From Candidatus Delongbacteria bacterium (lineage in GTDB: Bacteria > UBA4055): 53,238 nucleotides of DNA. Location: contig JAFGVM010000001.1 of assembly GCA_016937995.1 (NCBI GenBank), forward strand, positions 1 through 53,238. Reading direction: 5' to 3'. Position 1 is the stretch's first letter. Every line of letters starts with the position of its first letter. The notes under the pieces are model-generated. The model was not told where the DNA came from. It saw only the letters and a list, made by a program, of their open reading frames with translations, and did no database searches. The translations under genes and the position numbers were made by a program. Below, piece by piece: positions 804 to 33,421 of the stretch.

Positions 804-817
804 TTTATTTCTCCTCT

Positions 818-853
818 GTCATTGCGAGGATTTTATTAAATCCGTGGCAATCT
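818..853 (-). repeat. Hairpin repeat P3, copy 1
   Basis: Read on the minus strand this is GATTGCCACGGATTTA, a short loop, then AAATCCTCGCAATGAC. The arms pair as ATTGC/GCAAT and GGATTT/AAATCC. It lies in the leader of the ABC ATPase, ending 14 bases before the ATG. A second copy in the same orientation to its gene is at 19453-19486. Confidence 0.75.
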
Positions 854-867
854 TGTTCTTTTTTTTT

Positions 868-898
868 TGTCATCCTCGTGCTCCGACACGGGGATCCA
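868..898 (-). repeat. Hairpin repeat P1, copy 1
   Basis: On the plus strand CCTCGTG at 874-880 pairs, with one mismatch, with CACGGGG at 887-893, inside GTCATCC...GGGGATCC. A near-identical copy with perfect arms is at 10871-10899 and a diverged one at 33329-33360. Confidence 0.75.
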
Positions 899-920
899 TT
901 TTTATGTTTGTTAATCCGTT

Positions 921-950
921 TCGGGGTCGACCGTTGGGCGACCCCTACGA
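921..950 (-). repeat. Palindrome repeat P2, copy a
   Basis: GGGGTCG at 923-929 pairs with CGACCCC at 939-945 and is followed by the shared flank CTACGA. It belongs to a family of at least nine palindromes in this window that keep GGGG...CCCC but change the rest of the stem. Confidence 0.75.
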
Positions 951-953
951 ACT

Positions 954-981
954 ATCAACTGTCAACTTTCAACTGTCAACT
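954..981 (-). repeat. Heptamer repeat array (AGTTGAN unit), locus 1
   Basis: On the minus strand four 7-base units of the form AGTTGAC/AGTTGAA/AGTTGAT run in tandem. The first unit overlaps the TAG stop codon of the GntR gene. Similar 7-base arrays lie at 16641-16665 and 19376-19411. Confidence 0.7.
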
Positions 982-10800: not shown

Positions 10801-10854
10801 CATAGTAAATACTGATGATATTAGAAGAATGTATGTGTAAATTGTTTTTTTCAT
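7810..10854 (-). CDS. Secreted zinc peptidase / PD40 propeller / outer-membrane barrel fusion
   Basis: This is a 1014-residue three-part protein. A signal peptide (TYILLISSVFTMLSAQ) is followed by a gluzincin-type peptidase-MA domain with HEFSH (H126, E127, H130) and the downstream glutamate in PPWFAEGVAQ (E186). Residues of about 310-600 carry PD40/TolB-like propeller repeats (for example NPKFSPDGKYLAFLS, PEVSPDGKKIAFVA, PVYSPDEKYVYYAS). From about 620 to the end are amphipathic strands ending in LFDFIDF, like a BamA/surface-antigen barrel. The likely picture is a barrel-anchored protein displaying a propeller and peptidase, with active-site residues intact. No Shine-Dalgarno is visible; the upstream gap holds P1 and P2 repeats. 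Confidence 0.85.
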   Translation of the reverse strand: MKKTIYTYILLISSVFTMLSAQILDMHNHPELQWRTFDTEHFIFHYHQGTEKSAVRFASVGESIYGTITKLYNFYPDYKIHVIINDYDDMANGGAYYYNDKISLWAPAFDTILRGDHFWYTNLFAHEFSHMIQLQVPRKASKMFPGLYLQWTGYEDEKREDVLTGFPNILSSANIPMNIIPPWFAEGVAQNQDPDTLHYDFWDANRDMLLRERILEGKELKYSQLTDFYNRSSHEAESIYNTGFAFVKYIFEKYGKDVPYKISEEMGKAFSFSFEEAIKRVTGKRGDELYSEWINDLREKYRQEIKNVENNLVQGKDISDSAFVNSNPKFSPDGKYLAFLSTKIGGEPSFYKRDLHIKDLKTDSIKFKIPAVMFSSYSWTPDSRSIYFSRSDKHSIYGNNYLDIYHYDIKEDEEEQITHGMRAANPEVSPDGKKIAFVATHDGTRNLYIYDIEKDVALNLTKKDDGTQYFLPKWSKDGSKILIDRSIIEYGKDIVEVDTLGNVTTLISTKYDDRDPVYSPDEKYVYYASDRTGIYNIYRRDIASGLDETVTNVRGGAFYPELQQDTLVYVNYNGIRTNIYEIKDIEPIETSKCEYRDYEVYDNNFLSITTLDYLKDSRRYMNDFQSIMIVPRLAFDNNNFKPGIYFFLSDYLDKVSLFGGYNRGMNGDSDLFAMTEFKFLLPTIYGMAFNMVRTDDNTFINDRVIVHVDSLEDGTDIPEYEINDIDFTYDIMELDFGIKVPFTLKPKIFKYPLGELDMEAFFTYVRSDAAADYGDFVLKYTYFKEKSYNVKLNLASNKFRFNHYINRTYGRDVTFTYSRHITDFITGFSLNSDYGTLQEDYRKYNYNQYDLDIKEYFKLPLESGLTLKMKFSYLDDENIDSFYYNYIGGLTGLQGYSFYSLGGTKTAYASTMIRFPIVKRTDKLLGIYNFKNLYAGILFGAGTGWTDEAIKDSMKDLKKSVGLNIRMFGTIFYGFPLSVDYTVAYGLDKFVNEDVTYGHEVRSYLTVLFDFIDF

Positions 10855-10870
10855 TTATTTATTTCTATGT

Positions 10871-10899
10871 TGTCATCCCCGTGCTCAGACACGGGGATC
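10871..10899 (-). repeat. Hairpin repeat P1, copy 2
   Basis: CCCCGTG (10877-10883) and CACGGGG (10890-10896) are perfect arms around CTCAGA, inside TGTCATCC...GGGGATCT. It lies 17 bases upstream of the start of the peptidase-barrel gene. Confidence 0.8.
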
Positions 10900-10910
10900 T
10901 TTTTTTTTAA

Positions 10911-10936
10911 TAGGCGAATGTTGATTCGCCCCTACT
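10911..10936 (-). repeat. Palindrome repeat P2, copy d
   Basis: GGCGAAT (10913-10919) pairs with ATTCGCC (10924-10930) and is followed by the family flank CCTAC. On the minus strand the order is P2, P1, gene, matching locus 1. Confidence 0.75.
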
Positions 10937-10973
10937 TCATCATTGGATGTTCCGTGTTGAATATTGATATTCA

Positions 10974-13937
10974 TTATTTAATTACCGCAACCTTTACTTT
11001 ATACTTTTCTGTTTTACTTCCAGCTACGAACTCCAACACAGCAGTATAAATCCCTGTTGGTTTACCTGAAACATCCCATTCGATCTCGAAATTATCTCCT
11101 GATTCTGTGAAAGTCTCTGATAATTCTTTAATTTTATTTCCGTTAAGATCATAGATAGTAATGTTTACAGTGCCTGGTTCATTCAGGAAGAACCTGAAAT
11201 GAGTTAAATCCCCTTTTACAGGATTCGGCCAGTTGTAAACGCTTTTTTTGTTCGTAATATTGCTTGTTGTTGATGCATCTTCAGGAGACAGCAGAATAAA
11301 TCCATTCTGCAGCTGTAAATATGAATCAATTGTTCCTTCATTCAATGGGTAAACGTTAAGTGTTCCAAGCTTATCATAAGAGTAAATACATACCTGTCCG
11401 TTTGACTGAAGTAAACCTATGTTGTTAATGTCTGATCCAAGTGTAAAGTTCTCTGTTCTGACATAACCACCATCAAATGAATATGAACCGCAATTCATAG
11501 CATTGTCAACAAAAGTACAGAATTTACCATCGTCAGTTTCGTAAGTGAAAATATTATCTATCTGATCAACTCGTGTATCCAAAGGGAATCCATTTTCCAT
11601 ATATCCATGTTCATTATAGACCTCAATTGTACCTTCATTAGCTATTAGATAGTCAATGTTTCCATCCTCGTCAAGATCATTAAGTGAAGTTGAGCCATTA
11701 AAGTCAAGATATTTTATGGCCTCTTGGAAATTATTCTCTAAAAGATGGAACATATTATACCTAATTATGTTTGTATCCTCAACAATAATAACATCTTCTA
11801 TTGCATCGTAAGATTTTCCAATTATAGAGACCTTGCTATTCCCTGTAATATTATCGTTGTTGTAAGGAATAAATATTCCCAATCCTTGATCAATATAAAG
11901 TAGCCTATCTTTTATTGCAGCTATGAAGTAAGCATCCTTACTTCCATCATAGGTTACTGCAACATCAGTGATATTTTTTATCTCTGTTTCAACATTCCAG
12001 GATAAAACATCTGTCCAAATATGTAATCCTTCTTCTGTTGGTATTACACCCGGTTTTATCTGCCCAGTTACTTTTGATACTGGAGTATTAATAATTACAG
12101 GTGCATTCATATTTATTGTCGTTAAACCAAGTGAATCTGCTTGAACCAGCACCAAATTATCCTTATAATCAACTGGTTCGAATTTTTCAGATAGTGCAAC
12201 TCCAGTGTTATCTGAGAATATCAGCGAATCTTCCTTCTGTATCCTGATCTCTCCGTCATTTCTGTAGAATAAGTGATATAATTCATCATTGTAGTAGAAC
12301 GGCATATAGTTTGAATTTTCTAATCCTGAATTTATCGGATAACCTGATAATTGATTCTCCAGTTCATAAGAAAATCTCATCGATCTGCTTATACCGGAAA
12401 AATTGAATAATCTAATACCTGTATCTGTTCCTTCGTTCGTATCTGAACGTGGATATGATTTATTACTGAATTCAACACTGTTAAGGTCTTTATTTGAATA
12501 TTCAAGCCACATTTCGTTACTGCCAAAAAAGAAATCAAAATACCATCCAAGCTCGGTACCGTAACCAGCATCGAACAACCAGTAATCCTGACCGATATCA
12601 AATGAACCGTCACCTTCTTCCAGATACACACCCCTATTATCATGATCATCATTGACAGCATTGTTCACAATATTTTCCGGTGTAGTTTTTCGTTTATCAA
12701 TATGCCAGACAAGTATCCCGCCTGTTCTTACTGATAATGGATCTCCATCTTCAAGATCAAAACCGTAAGTCAAAGGAAAATCATAATCGTTATCCTGGAT
12801 AGATACCAATGTTTTGAAACCTTCATCGACAATTTCGTATTCTTCTAACCCGTATTTTCTTATAGTAAACCTTATTCTTTTGCCGTCTCTGTCGTATCCG
12901 AATATAGTAGAGTCTGAATTTGTGTAGTGAACAGGTGTTCTGTTCTCGACCAGAAAATATTCATCAGTGTTTATAGGAATTCTGTATATTGTCGAATTTG
13001 AATCCACAGCTATAGAATCACGTGACACTGTCAGATCCTCAATAGTTGTCCATCCCTGCTGTTCTTTTACCCATGCGCATACCGAGGACGGTATCATTCC
13101 TGAGAAATTGGCTGAACCCTGATCCATCAGTCCAAATTTTCCAATACAGCTTTGTCCATTTTCACTACTATAAAGGTTCGGGATTCCTAGATGGTGAGCA
13201 AACATCAAGGTAGAAATACCACCCATTCCTGCATAATACCATTTATCGTTGGATATTTGCCACTCACATTCAGGTAGAATAATACAATTATCAACTTTTA
13301 CATTCTTATCATTGATTGAATCATATAAAACTACCTCTTTTTCGTTTAGATCACTTAAAGAAAAGTATACAGATGGAATATCAAATGGTGTATCATCATA
13401 TCCTGCACTGAATTCCTGACCTGATCCGGCATGAAAAATTACGAATGTATCATAATTACTGAAAGGAATTGAATGATCATTTGATAACTTTCTCCACGAA
13501 TCCTGATAAAATTCATAAAGTTTTTCTTCGAGATTTTCGTCAGTGTAATTCTGATTATAATACCAGATCGGGTGATTAAGTGTAAAAACTGTATCAAGAA
13601 CAGTAATGTTTTTTACGATAGTATCTCCTGACATAGCATAGAAATAATTCTTAACGTAAGTAAGCTGATCAGTAAAATATTCAGCGTTATGTTCTACTGC
13701 ATCAAGTAAAAGAGTATCCGGATATTCATAACCGGAGTTGAAAGTTCCATCCCCTGTAGTATAATCAAGCGTGTCAGTTTCAAATTCAACCATGATCGCA
13801 AGTACGTTCAGGCCGGTTGCTTTCTGAGATGAAATTCCTAAAGCTGATTTCGAAAGATCTATCTTGGTTTTGCTGAAAATAGTCATTGTTGAAATAAGCA
13901 AAGTTATACACAGATATTTTAAAAATTTGTTTATCAT
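10974..13937 (-). CDS. M6-like metalloprotease homologue with altered active site and T9SS-type sorting domain
   Basis: This is a large secreted protein of 987 residues. After a signal peptide (LKYLCITLLISTMTIFSK), residues 40-300 match the M6 (immune inhibitor A-like) family: AGSGQEFSAG, then GISTLMFAHHLGIPNLYS, then GLMDQGSANFSG and CAWVKEQQGW. The expected HExxHxxGxxD is LMxxHxxGxxN, so the first zinc His (L244), the catalytic Glu (M245) and the Asp (N254) are replaced. The protein is probably not a conventional protease. The last 85 residues begin NWPNPV and contain VNITIYDLNGNKIKEL and end in VKVAVIK, a type IX secretion-like C-terminal domain. It lies 16 bases downstream of a PorV-like gene. 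Confidence 0.88.
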   Translation of the reverse strand: MINKFLKYLCITLLISTMTIFSKTKIDLSKSALGISSQKATGLNVLAIMVEFETDTLDYTTGDGTFNSGYEYPDTLLLDAVEHNAEYFTDQLTYVKNYFYAMSGDTIVKNITVLDTVFTLNHPIWYYNQNYTDENLEEKLYEFYQDSWRKLSNDHSIPFSNYDTFVIFHAGSGQEFSAGYDDTPFDIPSVYFSLSDLNEKEVVLYDSINDKNVKVDNCIILPECEWQISNDKWYYAGMGGISTLMFAHHLGIPNLYSSENGQSCIGKFGLMDQGSANFSGMIPSSVCAWVKEQQGWTTIEDLTVSRDSIAVDSNSTIYRIPINTDEYFLVENRTPVHYTNSDSTIFGYDRDGKRIRFTIRKYGLEEYEIVDEGFKTLVSIQDNDYDFPLTYGFDLEDGDPLSVRTGGILVWHIDKRKTTPENIVNNAVNDDHDNRGVYLEEGDGSFDIGQDYWLFDAGYGTELGWYFDFFFGSNEMWLEYSNKDLNSVEFSNKSYPRSDTNEGTDTGIRLFNFSGISRSMRFSYELENQLSGYPINSGLENSNYMPFYYNDELYHLFYRNDGEIRIQKEDSLIFSDNTGVALSEKFEPVDYKDNLVLVQADSLGLTTINMNAPVIINTPVSKVTGQIKPGVIPTEEGLHIWTDVLSWNVETEIKNITDVAVTYDGSKDAYFIAAIKDRLLYIDQGLGIFIPYNNDNITGNSKVSIIGKSYDAIEDVIIVEDTNIIRYNMFHLLENNFQEAIKYLDFNGSTSLNDLDEDGNIDYLIANEGTIEVYNEHGYMENGFPLDTRVDQIDNIFTYETDDGKFCTFVDNAMNCGSYSFDGGYVRTENFTLGSDINNIGLLQSNGQVCIYSYDKLGTLNVYPLNEGTIDSYLQLQNGFILLSPEDASTTSNITNKKSVYNWPNPVKGDLTHFRFFLNEPGTVNITIYDLNGNKIKELSETFTESGDNFEIEWDVSGKPTGIYTAVLEFVAGSKTEKYKVKVAVIK

Positions 13938-16023: not shown

Positions 16024-16551
16024 CTAGTCAAAAGTAATTGATTTAATCTTTACAGGCTGTAACGGATTATCCATCGGACCTTTTGCAACGTTTTCTATTT
16101 CATGGGCAACTTCCAATCCCTCTATGACCTTTCCGAAGACAGTATGTTTACCGTTCAGCCAGTCACAACCGCTTTTTCTTGTCACTATAAAGAATTGTGA
16201 TCCATTGGTATTTGGTCCGGCATTTGCCATTGCGATCGTACCGTAATCAACTGCTGCTTTCAGTTTGCCCATCTCATCGTGACATTCGTCACCGAACTCG
16301 TAACCGGGTCCACCGGTTCCGGTACCTATAGGACATCCGCCCTGGATCATAAAGTCATCTATAACTCTGTGAAATTTTAATCCATCATAAAATGGTTTCA
16401 TGGTCTTTTGACCGGTCATCGGGTCTTCCCACTCTTTTTCACCCTTAGCCAGTGAAACGAAATTATCAACTGTTTGGGGTGCTATGTCCGGCCATAGTTC
16501 GAGCTTAATATTACCTTTATTGGTGTGCATTGTAACTATGATATTTTCCAT
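16024..16551 (-). CDS. Cytoplasmic cyclophilin-type peptidyl-prolyl isomerase
   Basis: This enzyme catalyses cis-trans isomerisation of Xaa-Pro bonds. The 175-residue protein is a compact single-domain cyclophilin with FHRVIDDFMIQGG, ANAGPNTNGSQFFIV and WLNGKHTVFGKVIEG, containing the usual catalytic Arg and Phe positions. It has no signal peptide. The start is the ATG at 16551, six bases after AAAAGGAG; an in-frame TTG at 16557 is less likely. It is the last of four consecutive isomerase genes. It lacks the insertion of about 75-80 residues present in its two neighbours. Confidence 0.95.
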   Translation of the reverse strand: MENIIVTMHTNKGNIKLELWPDIAPQTVDNFVSLAKGEKEWEDPMTGQKTMKPFYDGLKFHRVIDDFMIQGGCPIGTGTGGPGYEFGDECHDEMGKLKAAVDYGTIAMANAGPNTNGSQFFIVTRKSGCDWLNGKHTVFGKVIEGLEVAHEIENVAKGPMDNPLQPVKIKSITFD

Positions 16552-16571
16552 TATCAACTCCTTTTAAAAGA

Positions 16572-16594
16572 GGGGACGAATTTTAGGCGTCCCC
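16572..16594 (-). repeat. Palindrome repeat P2, copy e
   Basis: GGGGACG (16572-16578) pairs with CGTCCCC (16588-16594). It lies in the leader of the cytoplasmic cyclophilin and follows a heptamer array, as at 19.4 kb. Confidence 0.75.
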
Positions 16595-16632
16595 TTCGGT
16601 TCTTTATTCATAATTCAAGTTACGGACGAGTA

Positions 16633-16665
16633 GTGTCTGACACTTACCACTTACCACTGTCCACT
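16633..16665 (-). repeat. Heptamer repeat array (AGTGGNN unit), locus 2
   Basis: On the minus strand AGTGGAC-AGTGGTA-AGTGGTA-AGTGTC is followed by the mini-hairpin GTGTCTGACAC. The array begins directly after the stop codon of the upstream cyclophilin. Confidence 0.7.
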
Positions 16666-17472
16666 TTACTTAACTCTTACCTTTGTCATTACTACGTCTT
16701 TAACAGGCTTGTCACCCTTTCCTTTTTCTACAGCTTCAATTTTAAGAGCAACATCCATTCCTTCGATCACTTTTCCGAAAACAGTATGCTTACCGTTCAA
16801 CCATGGTGTTCCATCTTTTTTAGTTACTATGAAAAACTGGGATCCATTAGTTCCAGGTCCTGAATTTGCCATTGCAATAACTCCGTAATCTACGGTTGCT
16901 TTCAATTTGCCTTTCGTAGCAAATTTTCCTTTAAAACCTGTTTTCTCAATATACCATTCGATAGGATGTTCCATCATCGGTTTTCCGCTTCTTGCCTTAT
17001 TACATTCTTCAATTATTTTTGAAATTTCCTTATCTCTCGTAGTCTCATTATTGGACTGTAAATAAGGTATCACCATTTGTTGAAATACATCTCCAGCCAT
17101 TGTTTCATCTGTAATTTTTCCTGACTTTATCTCTTTTCCTTCGTCAAAACATTCATCCTCAAATTTATATCCTGGATTTCCTGTACCTGTACCCAGCGGA
17201 CATCCACCCTGGATCATGAAATCACTTATTACTCTGTGAAAGATCAGTCCATCGTAAAAAGGTTTTTTTACTTTAGCTTTTGAAATTGGATCTGTCCATT
17301 CCTTAGTTCCATTTGCCAGACCGATGAAGTTCGCAACTGTCTTGGGAGCAATATCTGGCCAAAGCTCGATCTTGATTGTGCCCATTGTTGTTTCCATTGT
17401 AACTATTGGATTAGCAGCATAAAGCTGTATTATGCCTGCAACGAATAATAATGCGATCAGTAATTTTTTCAT
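16666..17472 (-). CDS. Exported cyclophilin with insertion
   Basis: This is a periplasmic peptidyl-prolyl isomerase of 268 residues. A cleavable signal peptide (LLIALLFVAGIIQLYA) precedes a cyclophilin domain with FHRVISDFMIQGG and ANSGPGTNGSQFFIV. Compared with the 175-residue neighbour, about 75-80 residues are inserted between FEDECFDEG and LKATVDYGVIAMA. The insert is charged, includes IPYLQSNNETTRDKEI and IEWYIEKTGFKGKF, and is shared with the next upstream gene. This suggests a subfamily with an added lid or partner-binding element (inference). AAAGGGA precedes the ATG. It belongs to a four-isomerase cluster. Confidence 0.93.
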   Translation of the reverse strand: MKKLLIALLFVAGIIQLYAANPIVTMETTMGTIKIELWPDIAPKTVANFIGLANGTKEWTDPISKAKVKKPFYDGLIFHRVISDFMIQGGCPLGTGTGNPGYKFEDECFDEGKEIKSGKITDETMAGDVFQQMVIPYLQSNNETTRDKEISKIIEECNKARSGKPMMEHPIEWYIEKTGFKGKFATKGKLKATVDYGVIAMANSGPGTNGSQFFIVTKKDGTPWLNGKHTVFGKVIEGMDVALKIEAVEKGKGDKPVKDVVMTKVRVK

Positions 17473-17496
17473 TTCATATCCCTTTAAATTATTTTA

Positions 17497-18390
17497 TCAG
17501 TTGATTACGACCCTTGAAATAATAACATCTTTCAACGGTTTATCTTTTTCACCTGTCTCAACATTTTCTATCTTATGAACAACATCCATTCCTTCAATCA
17601 CCATTCCAAAGACAGTATGTTTACCGTCTAGCCATGGAGTACCTTCTTTTTTTGTAACAATGAAAAATTGTGAACCGTTAGAATTTGGACCTGAATTTGC
17701 CATTGCGATAACACCGTATTTCACATTTGCCTTTAGTCGTTTCGGTATCAACCTTCCCTTATGACCCGTTTTTTCCAGATACCATTCTATCGGATAATCC
17801 TTTATTGGTTCTCCACTTTGAGCTTTATTACATCTTTCAAGAAGGTCCTGAATATCTTTGTCTCTGGTATCTTCATTTGTTCTCTGTAGATAAGGCATTA
17901 TCACTCTGTTGAATACTTCTCCAGCAATATAATCATTTTCAATCTCACCGGATGTCAGTTCTTCACCTACGTCAAAACATTCATCCTCGAACCTGTACCC
18001 AGGACCACCAGTACCGGTTCCTAATGGACATCCACCCTGGATCATAAAATCTTTTATTACTCTGTGAAATATTAGACCATCATAAAAAGGTCTGTTAACT
18101 TTCATACCTGATCGTGGATCTGTCCATTCCTTTTTGCCTGTTGCCAGACCAATAAAATTGGATACAGTCTTCGGAGCAATCTCCGGCCAAAGTTCTATTC
18201 TGATATTTCCGTAGTTTGTTTCTATCGTTGCAAAAGGATTTTTTTGATTCTGAGATTTTGCTTCATGATCCAGAGAAACTTCAGATGATTTATTAACTCC
18301 TTCTGAAGTGTCTGTTTTTTTTTGATCCTGTGAACAGCTTAAAAAAAGGATCAGCATCATTATTGTGAGTACTAAGTTTCTATTGAACAT
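17497..18390 (-). CDS. Cyclophilin lipoprotein with insertion
   Basis: This is a membrane-anchored periplasmic or surface peptidyl-prolyl isomerase of 297 residues. The signal peptide has a lipobox ending LFLSC near residue 19, followed by a 30-residue charged linker and then a cyclophilin domain (FHRVIKDFMIQGG, ANSGPNSNGSQFFIV, WLDGKHTVFGMVIEG). The same insertion as in the downstream paralogue occurs after FEDECFDVG, with the conserved PYLQRTNEDTRDKDI and IEWYLEKTGHKGR. The two probably arose by tandem duplication. CAGGGA lies before the ATG, and the FKBP gene ends 15 bases upstream. Confidence 0.93.
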   Translation of the reverse strand: MFNRNLVLTIMMLILFLSCSQDQKKTDTSEGVNKSSEVSLDHEAKSQNQKNPFATIETNYGNIRIELWPEIAPKTVSNFIGLATGKKEWTDPRSGMKVNRPFYDGLIFHRVIKDFMIQGGCPLGTGTGGPGYRFEDECFDVGEELTSGEIENDYIAGEVFNRVIMPYLQRTNEDTRDKDIQDLLERCNKAQSGEPIKDYPIEWYLEKTGHKGRLIPKRLKANVKYGVIAMANSGPNSNGSQFFIVTKKEGTPWLDGKHTVFGMVIEGMDVVHKIENVETGEKDKPLKDVIISRVVIN

Positions 18391-19375: not shown

Positions 19376-19411
19376 GAGTGAAGTTAGAAGTTAGAAGTTA
19401 GAGGTCAGAGG
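19376..19411 (+). repeat. Heptamer repeat array (AGTTAGA unit), locus 3
   Basis: AGTTAGA occurs three times in tandem, followed by the variant GGTCAGA. It is followed directly by a P2 palindrome and a P3 hairpin, then the methyltransferase gene. Confidence 0.75.
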
Positions 19412-19413
19412 CG

Positions 19414-19438
19414 GGGGAAGGTTTCCACACCTTCCCGG
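19414..19438 (+). repeat. Palindrome repeat P2, copy f
   Basis: GGGAAGGT (19416-19423) pairs with ACCTTCCC (19430-19437) and is preceded by GG. Confidence 0.75.
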
Positions 19439-19452
19439 AATCTTTAAAAAAT

Positions 19453-19486
19453 AGATTGCCACGGATTTAAAAAATCCTCGCAATGA
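19453..19486 (+). repeat. Hairpin repeat P3, copy 2
   Basis: AGATTGCCACGGATTTA, a loop and AAATCCTCGCAATGAC form the same imperfect hairpin as at 818-853. It lies in the leader of the methyltransferase, ending 22-23 bases before the ATG. Confidence 0.75.
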
Positions 19487-19509
19487 CAATAAAACAAAGA
19501 GAAAATAAA

Positions 19510-20310
19510 ATGAATAAATATTACGATACAAATAAGAAGAACTGGAATGAAAGAGTCAACATCCACAAAAATTCAAAGTTCTATGATGTGGAAGGATTTT
19601 TGAAAGGTAAAAGTTCGCTTAAGTGCTTAGAGCTGACTGAGCTCGGTGATGTGAAAGATAAAAAGATACTTCACCTGCAGTGCCATTTTGGGATGGATTC
19701 AATATCTTTGAGCAGAATGGGGGCAGAAGTAACCGGTGCAGATTTTTCATCAAATGCTATTGAACTTGCGAGAGAGCTTGCAGAAAAGACAGGATCAAAC
19801 ACTAGATTTATATGCGCCAATGTGCTTGAACTGAATTGGGCATTGGACGGTAAGTTCGATATTGTCTATGCATCTTACGGTGTTTTCTGCTGGATCGATG
19901 ACCTGAACAGATGGTTTGAGATAGCTGCTCATTTTCTAAAGCCTGGTGGAGAATTGATCATTCTCGATGGACATCCAAGTAATAATCTTTATGAATACAA
20001 TGAGGACAAAGGCGAACTTGAGATTGTAGGCCCGTACTTTAATGACAAAGCACATCGTTATGAGGAACTCTACACCTATACAGACGGAGATGTGAAAATG
20101 GAGAATCATGTTGAATACGAATGGGCTCATCCGGTCAGTGAATTCATAATGGCAGCCGTTAAAAACGGACTAAAGATCACTTCTTTCAAAGAATCTCCCC
20201 TGTGTGGATGGGAAAGATTTCCGAATATGAAGAAAAAAGATGAAGAATACTGGATACTTGAAAGTAAGGATCTGCCTTTCATCTTTTCAATGAAATGTGT
20301 TAAGGAATAA
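19510..20310 (+). CDS. Class I SAM-dependent methyltransferase
   Basis: This cytoplasmic enzyme would transfer a methyl group from S-adenosylmethionine to an unknown acceptor. The 266-residue protein starts MNKYYDTNKKNWNERVN. It carries motif I as ILHLQCHFGMDSISLSR near residue 60, the acidic end of strand 2 in VTGADFSSNAI, motif II/IV in FDIVYASYGVFCWIDD, and LKPGGELIILDGHP. The QCHFG version of motif I recurs in a bacterial subfamily of Methyltransf_11/25 proteins. I start at the ATG at 19510 with a weak AAAGAG upstream; the in-frame ATG at 19483 lies inside the P3 repeat. It appears monocistronic. Confidence 0.88.
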   Translation: MNKYYDTNKKNWNERVNIHKNSKFYDVEGFLKGKSSLKCLELTELGDVKDKKILHLQCHFGMDSISLSRMGAEVTGADFSSNAIELARELAEKTGSNTRFICANVLELNWALDGKFDIVYASYGVFCWIDDLNRWFEIAAHFLKPGGELIILDGHPSNNLYEYNEDKGELEIVGPYFNDKAHRYEELYTYTDGDVKMENHVEYEWAHPVSEFIMAAVKNGLKITSFKESPLCGWERFPNMKKKDEEYWILESKDLPFIFSMKCVKE

Positions 20311-21814: not shown

Positions 21815-24800
21815 ATGAAAAACAACAGCTCTTTAAGATTTATTCCGATAATTTTATTAATTTCAACATTTATCTTTACCAAAAACATTTACTCAAAAAT
21901 AGAAATGGTTATTCAAAGTGAACATTCAGGTAGTATAAATTCTATCGCAATTGACAAGAATGATAAATTCTTATACTCAGCAAGTTTTAATGAGATCAAA
22001 ATATGGAATTACAAGACAGGTGGACTGGCAAAAACATTGAATGTTCTTACCGATCTATACTCAATGACTTTGCATCCAAATGGTAAATACCTAATAACTG
22101 GTAGTTATGGCAAATTGGAATACCGCGACATTAAAACTGGGAAACTTGTTAAGACATTAAGGAAAAGCGAGTTTATTTCAGACAAATTAAAAATTGACCC
22201 TTCTGGGAATTATCTAATTTCTATCGAGAATGAAAAGTTTATCAAAATTTGGGACCTGAAAACTGATCAATGTGCTAGAACAATAAACGGTGACAGACAT
22301 TTTGTTACTGATTATGTTTTTTCTCCTGATGGAAAATATATTTTAACGGTTGGTTTTAGTAATGATATAAATGTATTTGATCTGAAAACCGGAAAACTTG
22401 TAAAAGAAATCTATATCGGTGAAGAAGGTACCAATATAGAAAATGTTGCAATTGATAGTAAGGGCGAAACGATAGTTGCTTCTCAGTATCAAAGGATCTA
22501 CGTTATCGATTTTTATACAGGCAAACAAAAAATGATGATAACACAGTCTGAAAATATAAGTTCACTGGCAATAGATCCTGAAAACAAGTATATCTTAAGC
22601 CCAACTAAGGGAGGGATAATATTTTGGGATATTAGAAATGGGAATATTGCTCAGCAAAGTATAAATCCTTATGGGAAAAAATTTGTATTTAACAACGCAA
22701 AAACCGCTGTGATTACAGGTGTTGAGGGTACACATTTAAACGAAGTAAACCTGAATAATCCTAGTTCAACAAGAAATTTCGGTATTGATCCCGACTTTCA
22801 CAGAGTCACTTTTCTGCATACTGATGAAACAATCTTGATGACATGTGACGATTATGAAGTTTACTTCTGGGACATAGAATCCGGAGCTTTAATTGACCGT
22901 TTCGATCCCGAGCAAGTAAGTAGAGAAGGTGTTTTTCGTGGTGGATTACACAGCATTGCTTTAAGTGATGACAAAAAACAATTTCTCACAGCAGATAAAT
23001 CATCAATAAAAATCTGGAATTACAAGACAAAAAAGCTTATTAAAAAATTTAATGTGACAGACTACAAAAATGGCCACGGGCACGATGGTTGCGGTTATGT
23101 AATTGTCGATCCATTATTCAAATATGCAGTTACTTACGGTAAAGATATTATTCTATGGAATATTTTAACAGGAGAATTTATTACAAAAGTCTCAGACAGA
23201 TCTTATGGTTTCTTTTTAATTGATCCCACGAATAATTTTTTAGTTCATATGCGCTACGGTAATAATGTAGAGATAAGAAAATTAAACAATCTTGAACTTG
23301 TTACTTCTTTTAATCTTCCAAGAAGTGGATTTGCTTCAATGTCATTTGACTTTTCAGGTAAGTATCTTGTTTTTGAGACCGAGGGCAAGGCTTTTGATGT
23401 TTATAATTTTGAAGATAAAAAATGGGAAAAGGGTTCTGAATCATACTTAAAAGACCTAACCGGTTTTAAAACTTCACAAAATAAATATTACAAGAATAAA
23501 GGGTCAGTTTTCTGGAACATCTATTCGCAAAACAGTGCAATATTTGAAAAAGACCAGTTCGGATTATTAAGCAGATCAGGAAAATTGATCATTTCTTCAA
23601 ATCCTGATAAATCGTTACAGATTACAAACTCCTGTTCTCAAAAAAGTTTCAAACTTTTAAGTAGCAGCAATGACTGGGTTATGTTCAATGATGAAGGATA
23701 TTTTGATGCTTCAAGATATGGTGGTAAGTTGGTATCCATGTCTAATGAGAATCTTGAAGTATTTTCAATTGATCAGTTCGCAATAAAAAACAACAGACCA
23801 GACCTGATACTTAAATATATTGGCGTATCAGACAATTTGACCATAGAACACTTTAAACAGCAATATCAAAGAAGATTAAGAAAACTGGGACTTACTGAAG
23901 ATCAATTATCCTCTGATCTTCATGCTCCTGATGCAAAAATAAAAAATATAACAACTTCGTTCAATTTTTCAGAAATCTCATTCTCTTTAACTGATACAAA
24001 ATACGATTTGAATTCTTACAACATTTATGTTAATGATGTCCCTGTGTATGGATCTGATGGGAAAAAGATAGAAGGAAAGAGTATCGAACTATCGGAGAAT
24101 GTTGAGATCACTCAGGGAAATAACAAGATCGAGATTTCTTGTATGAATAGCAAAGGTGTAGAGAGTTATAGAGCTTATACTTATGCAGATTATAAAGAAC
24201 TAAAGAAATCAGCTCTTTATTTACTTTCGTTCGGGGTTTCTGATTATAAAGATAATGCTCTTGATCTAAAATATGCTGCAAAAGATGCAGAAGATATTTC
24301 TGAAGCTTTTTCTAAACTGAATTCAAAACAGTTCTCGAATGTTTATTCCCAAGTATTTACAAATAATGACGTAACTATAGATAATATCAAAAATGCTATG
24401 AGTTTTCAAATGCTTAATGCGCGACCAAACGATTTCTTCGTTTTATTCATTGCCGGTCATGGAATTCACGATAATGACCCCGAAAATACTTACTATTTCC
24501 TCACACACGAATCAGATTTGAACGATCTTAAAAATACAGCTGCGAATTTTGAATTAATTGAGGATATACTTGACGGGATTCCTCCTAGAAATAAACTATT
24601 CCTAATGGACACATGTGAATCAGGAGAGCTTGAGGATGGTGATATCAATGTGTATGCATCAGCTGATGGTTCCAGAGGATTAAAAAGTAGAGGAATAAAG
24701 ATTAATAATACCAATAACTTTAAATCGAAACCTTCAACAGATAGATACATTTACGAAAAGAACAGATATATCTATAACGACCTTGCTAGAAGGACCGGAG

Positions 24801-25057
24801 CGATAGTTTTCTCTTCTTCAAGAGGAGGAGAGCTCTCTTATGAAAGAGATGATATTCAGAACGGATTATTTACTGAAGAGTTAATAAATTGTCTTAAATC
24901 AAGTGATGCCGATACAGACAATGACGGAATTATCTCAACAGAGGAACTCAGGATATTCGTTGGCAAGAAGGTTGCTGAGCAATCCGGAGGACTGCAGCAT
25001 CCTACTATTGACAGAGATAATATTTACCAGAAATTTGGATTTAAGTCTTCAAAATAA
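21815..25057 (+). CDS. Secreted WD40-repeat / caspase-family (C14) peptidase with EF-hand
   Basis: This 1080-residue protein begins with a signal peptide (FIPIILLISTFIFTKNIYS), so it acts outside the cytoplasm. Residues 30-560 are WD40 blades (for example SIAIDKNDKFLYSASFNEIK, IWDLKTDQCARTI, YILTVGFSNDINVFDLKTG). After a linker domain, a caspase fold begins near residue 795 (ALYLLSFGVSDYKDN, YAAKDAEDISEAF). The catalytic His is H882 in IAGHGIHD and the Cys is C934 in LMDTCESGE, both intact. A canonical EF-hand loop follows at residues 1033-1044 (DTDNDGIISTEE), then a QHPTIDRDN tail. Calcium binding might therefore regulate it, as in some metacaspases (inference). Substrate and partner are unknown. 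TTAGGAG precedes the ATG. Confidence 0.9.
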   Translation: MKNNSSLRFIPIILLISTFIFTKNIYSKIEMVIQSEHSGSINSIAIDKNDKFLYSASFNEIKIWNYKTGGLAKTLNVLTDLYSMTLHPNGKYLITGSYGKLEYRDIKTGKLVKTLRKSEFISDKLKIDPSGNYLISIENEKFIKIWDLKTDQCARTINGDRHFVTDYVFSPDGKYILTVGFSNDINVFDLKTGKLVKEIYIGEEGTNIENVAIDSKGETIVASQYQRIYVIDFYTGKQKMMITQSENISSLAIDPENKYILSPTKGGIIFWDIRNGNIAQQSINPYGKKFVFNNAKTAVITGVEGTHLNEVNLNNPSSTRNFGIDPDFHRVTFLHTDETILMTCDDYEVYFWDIESGALIDRFDPEQVSREGVFRGGLHSIALSDDKKQFLTADKSSIKIWNYKTKKLIKKFNVTDYKNGHGHDGCGYVIVDPLFKYAVTYGKDIILWNILTGEFITKVSDRSYGFFLIDPTNNFLVHMRYGNNVEIRKLNNLELVTSFNLPRSGFASMSFDFSGKYLVFETEGKAFDVYNFEDKKWEKGSESYLKDLTGFKTSQNKYYKNKGSVFWNIYSQNSAIFEKDQFGLLSRSGKLIISSNPDKSLQITNSCSQKSFKLLSSSNDWVMFNDEGYFDASRYGGKLVSMSNENLEVFSIDQFAIKNNRPDLILKYIGVSDNLTIEHFKQQYQRRLRKLGLTEDQLSSDLHAPDAKIKNITTSFNFSEISFSLTDTKYDLNSYNIYVNDVPVYGSDGKKIEGKSIELSENVEITQGNNKIEISCMNSKGVESYRAYTYADYKELKKSALYLLSFGVSDYKDNALDLKYAAKDAEDISEAFSKLNSKQFSNVYSQVFTNNDVTIDNIKNAMSFQMLNARPNDFFVLFIAGHGIHDNDPENTYYFLTHESDLNDLKNTAANFELIEDILDGIPPRNKLFLMDTCESGELEDGDINVYASADGSRGLKSRGIKINNTNNFKSKPSTDRYIYEKNRYIYNDLARRTGAIVFSSSRGGELSYERDDIQNGLFTEELINCLKSSDADTDNDGIISTEELRIFVGKKVAEQSGGLQHPTIDRDNIYQKFGFKSSK

Positions 25058-33328: not shown

Positions 33329-33360
33329 CTGTCATTCTCGGACTCGATCCGGGAATCCAG
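33329..33360 (+). repeat. Hairpin repeat P1, diverged copy 3
   Basis: TCTCGGA (33336-33342) and TCCGGGA (33348-33354) around CTCGA, inside CTGTCATT...GGAATCC, follow the MFS stop codon directly. Confidence 0.55.
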
Positions 33361-33393
33361 GAGTATTAAAATTTGGATATGTTTTTATTAAAA

Positions 33394-33421
33394 ATGGGGA
33401 CGATAAGAATTCGTCCCCTAC
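33394..33421. repeat. Palindrome repeat P2, copy i (possible terminator)
   Basis: GGGGACGA (33396-33403) pairs with TCGTCCCC (33411-33418), followed by TACATTTT. It lies between convergent genes and may stop transcription from either side. Confidence 0.7.

Follow-up and report, generated by a model that had tools for sequence, protein, structure and literature searches.

Intergenic repeats of a Candidatus Delongbacteria genome are arranged in ordered composites that read in the direction of the neighbouring genes, and we think it probable that these are hybrid REPIN-like elements, dispersed by a REP-associated transposase (RAYT), that lie between the stop codon of one gene and the ribosome-binding site of the next and whose parts can be exchanged. 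The window, by which we mean the whole stretch of 53,238 nucleotides analysed here, is contig C28 of a 2.75-Mb draft assembly in 99 contigs (G000). An earlier note on this DNA, made from four loci, had described a 7-base array and three palindromes (P2, P1 and P3) in fixed order and orientation before a gene, some of them missing at some loci, and had suggested that they make up a single composite, which might be mobile or regulatory and which gains and loses parts.

Composites in the window

At 801-982, on the minus strand, the order array, P2, P1, P3, ABC start is borne out by the sequence. A heptamer array (950-981, minus strand; units AGTTGAC, AGTTGAA and AGTTGAT) overlaps the stop codon of the GntR gene, and is followed on the same strand by P2 (923-948), a GTAG-tagged palindrome, GTAGGGGTCGCCCAACGGTCGACCCC, that makes up the left end of the composite, by P1 (868-896; GATCCCCGTG..CACGAGGATGACA, in whole GATCCCCGTGTCGGAGCACGAGGATGACA), a hairpin of the CGTC class with a TGTC tag when read on the opposite strand, and by P3 (817-852; GATTGCCACGGATTT..AAATCCTCGCAATGACA, in whole GATTGCCACGGATTTAATAAAATCCTCGCAATGACA), a bulged TGTC-tagged hairpin that makes up the right end. 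The Shine-Dalgarno and spacer of the ABC gene (804-816, minus strand; GAGGAGAAATAAA, with GAGGAG as Shine-Dalgarno) and its ATG start codon (803-801, minus strand) come next. A promoter scan of this locus gave four matches, with 1.5 expected.

The other three loci also read in the order described. On the plus strand at 19376-19510, an array (AGTTAGA)n (19376-19410) precedes a P2-like palindrome, GGGGGAAGGTTTCCACACCTTCCC (19413-19436), and a P3 hairpin (19454-19488); on the minus strand at 16665-16551, an array of AGTGGAC and AGTGGTA units immediately 3' of a stop codon (16638-16665) precedes a P2-like palindrome, GAAGGGGACGCCTAAAATTCGTCCCC (16572-16597), and then TCTTTTAAAA; and on the minus strand at 10972-10854, P2 (10912-10935; GTAGGGGCGAATCAACATTCGCCT) precedes P1 (10871-10899; GATCCCCGTGTCTGAGCACGGGGATGACA). 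Two amendments are needed. P2 is where it was said to be at all four loci, but the GTAG tag is missing from the copies at 16572-16597 (a degenerate GAAG) and 19413-19436 (GCGG instead); and the third of these loci, for which P2 and P1 were given correctly, starts with a degenerate period-7 stretch that had been omitted (10936-10973, minus strand; ATATCAA TATTCAA CACGGAA CATCCAA TGATGAA) and that is seen again with the composite on contig C35. The same order, P2 (33397-33421) then a P1-type hairpin (33331-33357), is found on the minus strand of a convergent gap at 33331-33421.

Order, orientation and spacing in the genome

The window and 60 further stretches give a sample of 1.13 Mb, or 41% of the genome, chosen partly around module-bearing contigs, so that copy density is biased; the choice took no account of order and orientation. 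Module counts depend on the pattern definitions: the P2 pattern has 76 matches in this sample, with about 50 different stems, and the P1 and P3 patterns have 11 and 15 copies in the whole genome, with none in reversed-pattern controls.

Among neighbour pairs (modules within 130 bp of each other), P2 precedes P3 in 14 cases and follows it in none, with none inverted and with tags outward in all these pairs, and the array precedes P2 in seven, with no pair reversed and one inverted. The fixed order claimed from four loci therefore holds for P2 with P3 and for the array with P2, but is partly random for P1, which comes after P2 in seven pairs and before it in four; P1 precedes P3 three times and follows it once. 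A second, generic detector, which looks for tagged hairpins and period-7 tandem arrays, puts the GTAG hairpin before the TGTC hairpin 12 to 0 and the array before the GTAG hairpin 11 to 0 (order-shuffle P ~0.001 for each). The gap between P2 and P3 is 10-16 bp in 8 of the 14 pairs. With gene starts called by a simple open-reading-frame rule, P2 lies in 45 co-directional, 14 convergent and 3 divergent gaps, and in the co-directional ones it reads with the genes 40 times and against them five times; the corresponding figures are 17 and 4 for P3, 16 and 9 for P1, and 10 and 3 for the arrays. The odds ratio for P2+ and P1/P3+ in the same gap is 9-10 (P 1e-5 to 2e-7), and the roughly 10-fold enrichment of P2 together with P1/P3 holds in long gaps as well.

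The heptamer arrays are a class of their own in this genome: 108 kb of intergenic DNA contains 40 arrays of period 7 and 15 of period 14, a harmonic of 7, whereas the remaining periods of 4 to 15 together account for four arrays and a Markov control for one. In being tandem, forward, intergenic 7-mers they are like the TAACTGA repeats known from Beggiatoaceae, cyanobacteria and Bacteroidetes. The units are related (AGTTATC is obtained by rotating the complement of TAACTGA), and the forward orientation predominates, as it does in Beggiatoaceae (PMC4679880). However, the Beggiatoaceae repeats lie near the next start codon (PMC4679880), whereas the forward arrays here begin at the upstream stop codon, at a median of 2.5 bp inside the upstream gene by the generic detector. 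They also differ in often leading into a GTAG palindrome and in having many unit sequences, and we do not assign them to the TAACTGA type, defined by that unit directly 5' of a start codon. Arrays in reverse orientation are nearer to the downstream start codon (L078, L083, L097, L106), and five forward-reverse pairs were seen, in co-directional gaps. Several contigs of G000 (C4, C12, C36, C46, C66) end in 7-base arrays, which for that reason probably broke the assembly there.

Gain, copying and exchange of parts

The comparison of presence and absence proposed in the earlier note was made at the few loci for which draft assemblies had usable orthologues, G001 and G002 (taken as Candidatus Delongbacteria isolate GH31) being of the same genus as the window genome; composites are missing at the orthologous junctions of several relatives. 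The gap between the GntR and ABC genes is 8 bp in G008 and G009, 18 bp in G001 and 23 bp in G006 and G010, against 143 bp in G002 and 176 bp in our genome, and the Shine-Dalgarno and spacer at 804-816 are alike in sister genomes whether or not these have the composite. In G002 the gap contains a TAGGGAT-type 7-mer array, another GTAG hairpin, P3 and an identical Shine-Dalgarno; P1 is absent and is thus extra in our genome relative to G002. The module order is common to both species, with a different 7-mer unit and GTAG hairpin. At two further loci our genome and G002 have composites where the other relatives with an orthologue have 5-23 bp, and other composite junctions are likewise empty in several relatives, so that by this comparison the presence of the composites is derived.

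Parts are also swapped or dropped elsewhere. At 10855-10973, our genome has P2 and P1 between an A-run and the start codon, and G002 has in the same place, from the same A-run to the start codon, a GTAG-type palindrome (tag GTAA) and P3; G001 has P2 and a CACAGAG-type repeat. At 16552-16665 the genes overlap in G002. The earlier suggestion of an element that gains and loses parts agrees well with these differences, and that of mobility with the copying of whole composites between unrelated junctions: the composite at 10854-10976 of the window matches one on C35 (91% over 109 bp), that of L079 matches L094 (94% over 141 bp), and a part of the window's first composite (850-965) matches L091 (82% over 114 bp). 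In all three cases homology stops at the composite, and the neighbouring DNA and genes are unrelated. None of the compared loci shows the unit inserted exactly, in a single step, at a site that is otherwise identical. Taken together, the empty orthologous sites, the copied composites and the differing parts in sister species support the view that the composite disperses as a unit, with parts lost or exchanged later.

Among 386 genomes, hybrid P2-P3 pairs were found 12 times in our genome, five times in G002, once each in three distant genomes and four times in G183, also distant, where the matches may be a related cluster. All five G002 pairs have the same polarity and lie 5' of an ORF start, as far as the sequence reaches. 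P3 alone occurs in Gastranaerophilales, Gracilibacteria, Helicobacter, Oscillospiraceae and a deltaproteobacterium, where its neighbours are mostly different; in Gastranaerophilales (L156-L187) it follows a TGTCATCCTGAGCGAAACGAAGTGAAGTCGAAGGATCTT-type repeat at near-constant distance, which is another composite. An Rfam search matched no family, and a literature search for repeats in Delongbacteria returned nothing relevant.

The class of the repeats

Repetitive extragenic palindromes (REPs) have been split into a GTAG-tagged and a CGTC-tagged superfamily (Di Nocera 2013, PMC3733652). P2 is a REP of the GTAG class: the copies at 923-948 and 10912-10935 are palindromes of 20-40 bp with an unpaired GTAG at one end, and, as in the GTAG REPs and RAYTs known as REPtrons (PMC3733652; Nunvar 2010, PMC2817692), the palindrome is short and intergenic and has many stem subtypes. 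It is unlike known GTAG REPs in that its partner is often not a second P2 but a palindrome from the other superfamily, and in having one polarity relative to genes.

CGTC-tagged REPs, which occur in several phyla, often have TGTC as tag and a stem that opens with AT; no transposase is known for them, and whether they are moved by RAYTs was an open question in the 2013 survey (PMC3733652). By tag and stem, P1 and P3 can be assigned to this CGTC/TGTC class. Both end in TGTC or CGTC on the opposite strand and have stems that open with AT, so that they resemble dRS3 and RPE-4/RPE-6 (TGTC-AT-stem-AT on the other strand, TGTC being a listed tag variant; PMC3733652). P1 roughly fits the stem of 8-9 bp and loop of 4-5 of CGTC REPs, and TGTCATATTCGG..ATCC followed by P1 at several loci makes head-to-head dimers, again as in CGTC REPs (PMC3733652). 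P3, in contrast, has a bulged stem in two parts (an outer stem of 5 bp, a bulge and a separate inner stem) with an exchangeable inner hairpin. Published REPs sit closer to the 3' end of the upstream gene (PMC3733652), whereas P1 and P3 often come after a GTAG REP and before a start codon. The hairpin TCCCGATAAATCGGGA is present inside both P3-type and P1-type frames (L077:1422, L082:1572, L119:14443-14510, L067:18112), and it therefore seems that parts are exchanged even within hairpins.

REPINs and BIMEs are pairs of REPs with their tags outward that disperse as a unit, and REPINs are symmetric, with one type of REP. The P2-P1/P3 pair resembles a REPIN in its outward tags and in dispersing as a unit, since three composite pairs have been copied with unrelated flanks. 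However, because P2 is of the GTAG class and P1/P3 of the CGTC class, it is a hybrid head-to-head pair, GTAG on the left and TGTC on the right, and being a hybrid it has a direction. As its two REPs are not both of one RAYT-linked type, we call the composite REPIN-like and do not file it as a REPIN.

Association of P2 with RAYT genes

A Pfam search found Y1 transposases in 6 of 13 genomes of the family. As in known REPtrons, a RAYT gene of the genus (L331, in G001) is flanked by the same palindromes as P2, GTAGGGAACGCAGGAATGCGTTCC being present on both sides. Unlike in known REPtrons, several RAYT genes carry palindromes inside the reading frame: GTAG-type palindromes are in frame in RAYT genes of G001, G002 and G007 (L308:4589-5203, L335:1486-2097, L337:565-1227, L118:10188-10772 and L305, the list including our own genome). 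L118:10188-10772 is the full-length RAYT-like gene of our genome, with P2-type palindromes inside (tag GCAG), and protein comparison found two remnants besides it. The best NCBIfam match of the P2-linked RAYTs is 'REP-associated tyrosine transposase', all below the curated cut-off. Of the six palindrome subtypes from the RAYT genes compared, five have 4-8 dispersed copies each in the G000 sample and the sixth (L335) has one; reversed controls gave none. No RAYT among those examined is flanked by P1 or P3. L001, the only strong Y1_Tnp gene of our genome by Pfam, was considered as the source of P2 and set aside, its flanking repeats being unrelated.

In the scenario that we favour, a RAYT, as a single-strand Y1 transposase, would mobilise the P2 end, and the P1/P3 end would be carried along. 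Most surviving copies would be those that lie after a stop codon and before the next Shine-Dalgarno and that read with transcription, and we propose that this is because neither gene is disturbed there; the orientation would be kept for the same reason. Later recombination and new insertions would then replace single modules. A more tentative idea, which we would rather bet against than for, is that one RAYT of the genus moves an element that is hybrid in its ends, one being a GTAG REP and the other a CGTC REP. If this were true, the RAYT would be the missing transposase for CGTC REPs, and REP composites would have a direction, a conserved order of modules and modules that can be exchanged. 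With GTAG and CGTC palindromes going together as one polar unit that disperses, this genus allows the question of the CGTC transposase to be put to the test, and its sites between neighbouring genes, which occur empty, partly filled or full, make the effect of REP insertion on expression measurable.

Alternative explanations

The main rival is that of independent repeat families, each with its own positional preference, from which the fixed order would arise by itself in the absence of any composite element. By the generic detector, arrays and GTAG hairpins do favour the side of the stop codon (the latter at 0.34 of the gap) and TGTC hairpins that of the start codon (at 0.80 of the gap, 17 bp before the start). 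Furthermore, P2, P1, P3 and the arrays all occur singly too, and at one locus P3 stands in one sister genome where P1 stands in another; the single modules, and the presence of P1 on either side of P2 (7 to 4), also speak against the hybrid element. This rival explains the order, but not the narrow spacing of P2 and P3, nor the enriched co-occurrence of P2 with P1/P3, nor the recurrence of whole composites, spacers included, between unrelated genes, and we consider it rather unlikely. The claim of 'one element' thus has to be moderated: composites are copied whole, but parts are also found alone, and the order may come in part from separate positional preferences. That a few low-complexity repeats had fallen into this order by coincidence could have been argued when four loci only had been seen, two with P2-like copies devoid of the tag; the genome-wide counts, controls and sister-genome comparisons refute this reading, to which we give practically no credit.

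Orientation raises other questions. A selected regulatory cassette, with P2 as a terminator or protector of the mRNA 3' end for the gene before it, P1/P3 as a 5' UTR hairpin for the gene after it and the array as a stop in all frames, would agree with the fact that P2 follows the gene strand and not the contig strand (18 versus 4, in stretches of up to 20 kb with genes on both strands). It would also agree with the predicted fold of the RNA at 801-982, in which P2, P1 and P3 form separate hairpins and the Shine-Dalgarno remains free (z = -4.55), with the order kept between sister species despite different sequences, and with P3 inner stems and P2 stems that vary between copies and are mostly still paired. 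Against this, a T-rich tract follows only 18 of 70 forward P2 hairpins and 3 of 9 reversed ones, i.e. with no enrichment, which speaks against P2 as a general intrinsic terminator; the same gene pairs do without composites in relatives, and no Rfam family was matched. A regulatory role of the composite is possible on this evidence, but the cassette as the explanation of the whole pattern seems to us doubtful, about as much as independent families. The orientation could also come from replication, if insertion by a single-strand transposase takes place on one replication strand and it just happens that genes tend to be on the leading strand; IS200/IS605-type enzymes are described as targeting the lagging strand template (PMC6006769). 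The count of 18 to 4 for the gene strand weakens this explanation, which we find improbable.

Other observations

A promoter-like motif, GCAAAAGGTCACTATTTGACC with TATATT about 17 bp later, is present 5' of RAYT and other accessory genes (L077:1482, L078:8132, L083:7708, L106:7383, L331:1255, L335, L337 and L305), and the RAYT gene of G007 (L305) has a tandem repeat array between two in-frame GTAG-type palindromes. In the window, three related genes lie in tandem at 16024-18390, with segments that are 67-81% identical, one of them coding for a cyclophilin-type isomerase, and positions 21815-25057 code for a protein with WD40 repeats and a caspase-type C14 peptidase domain.
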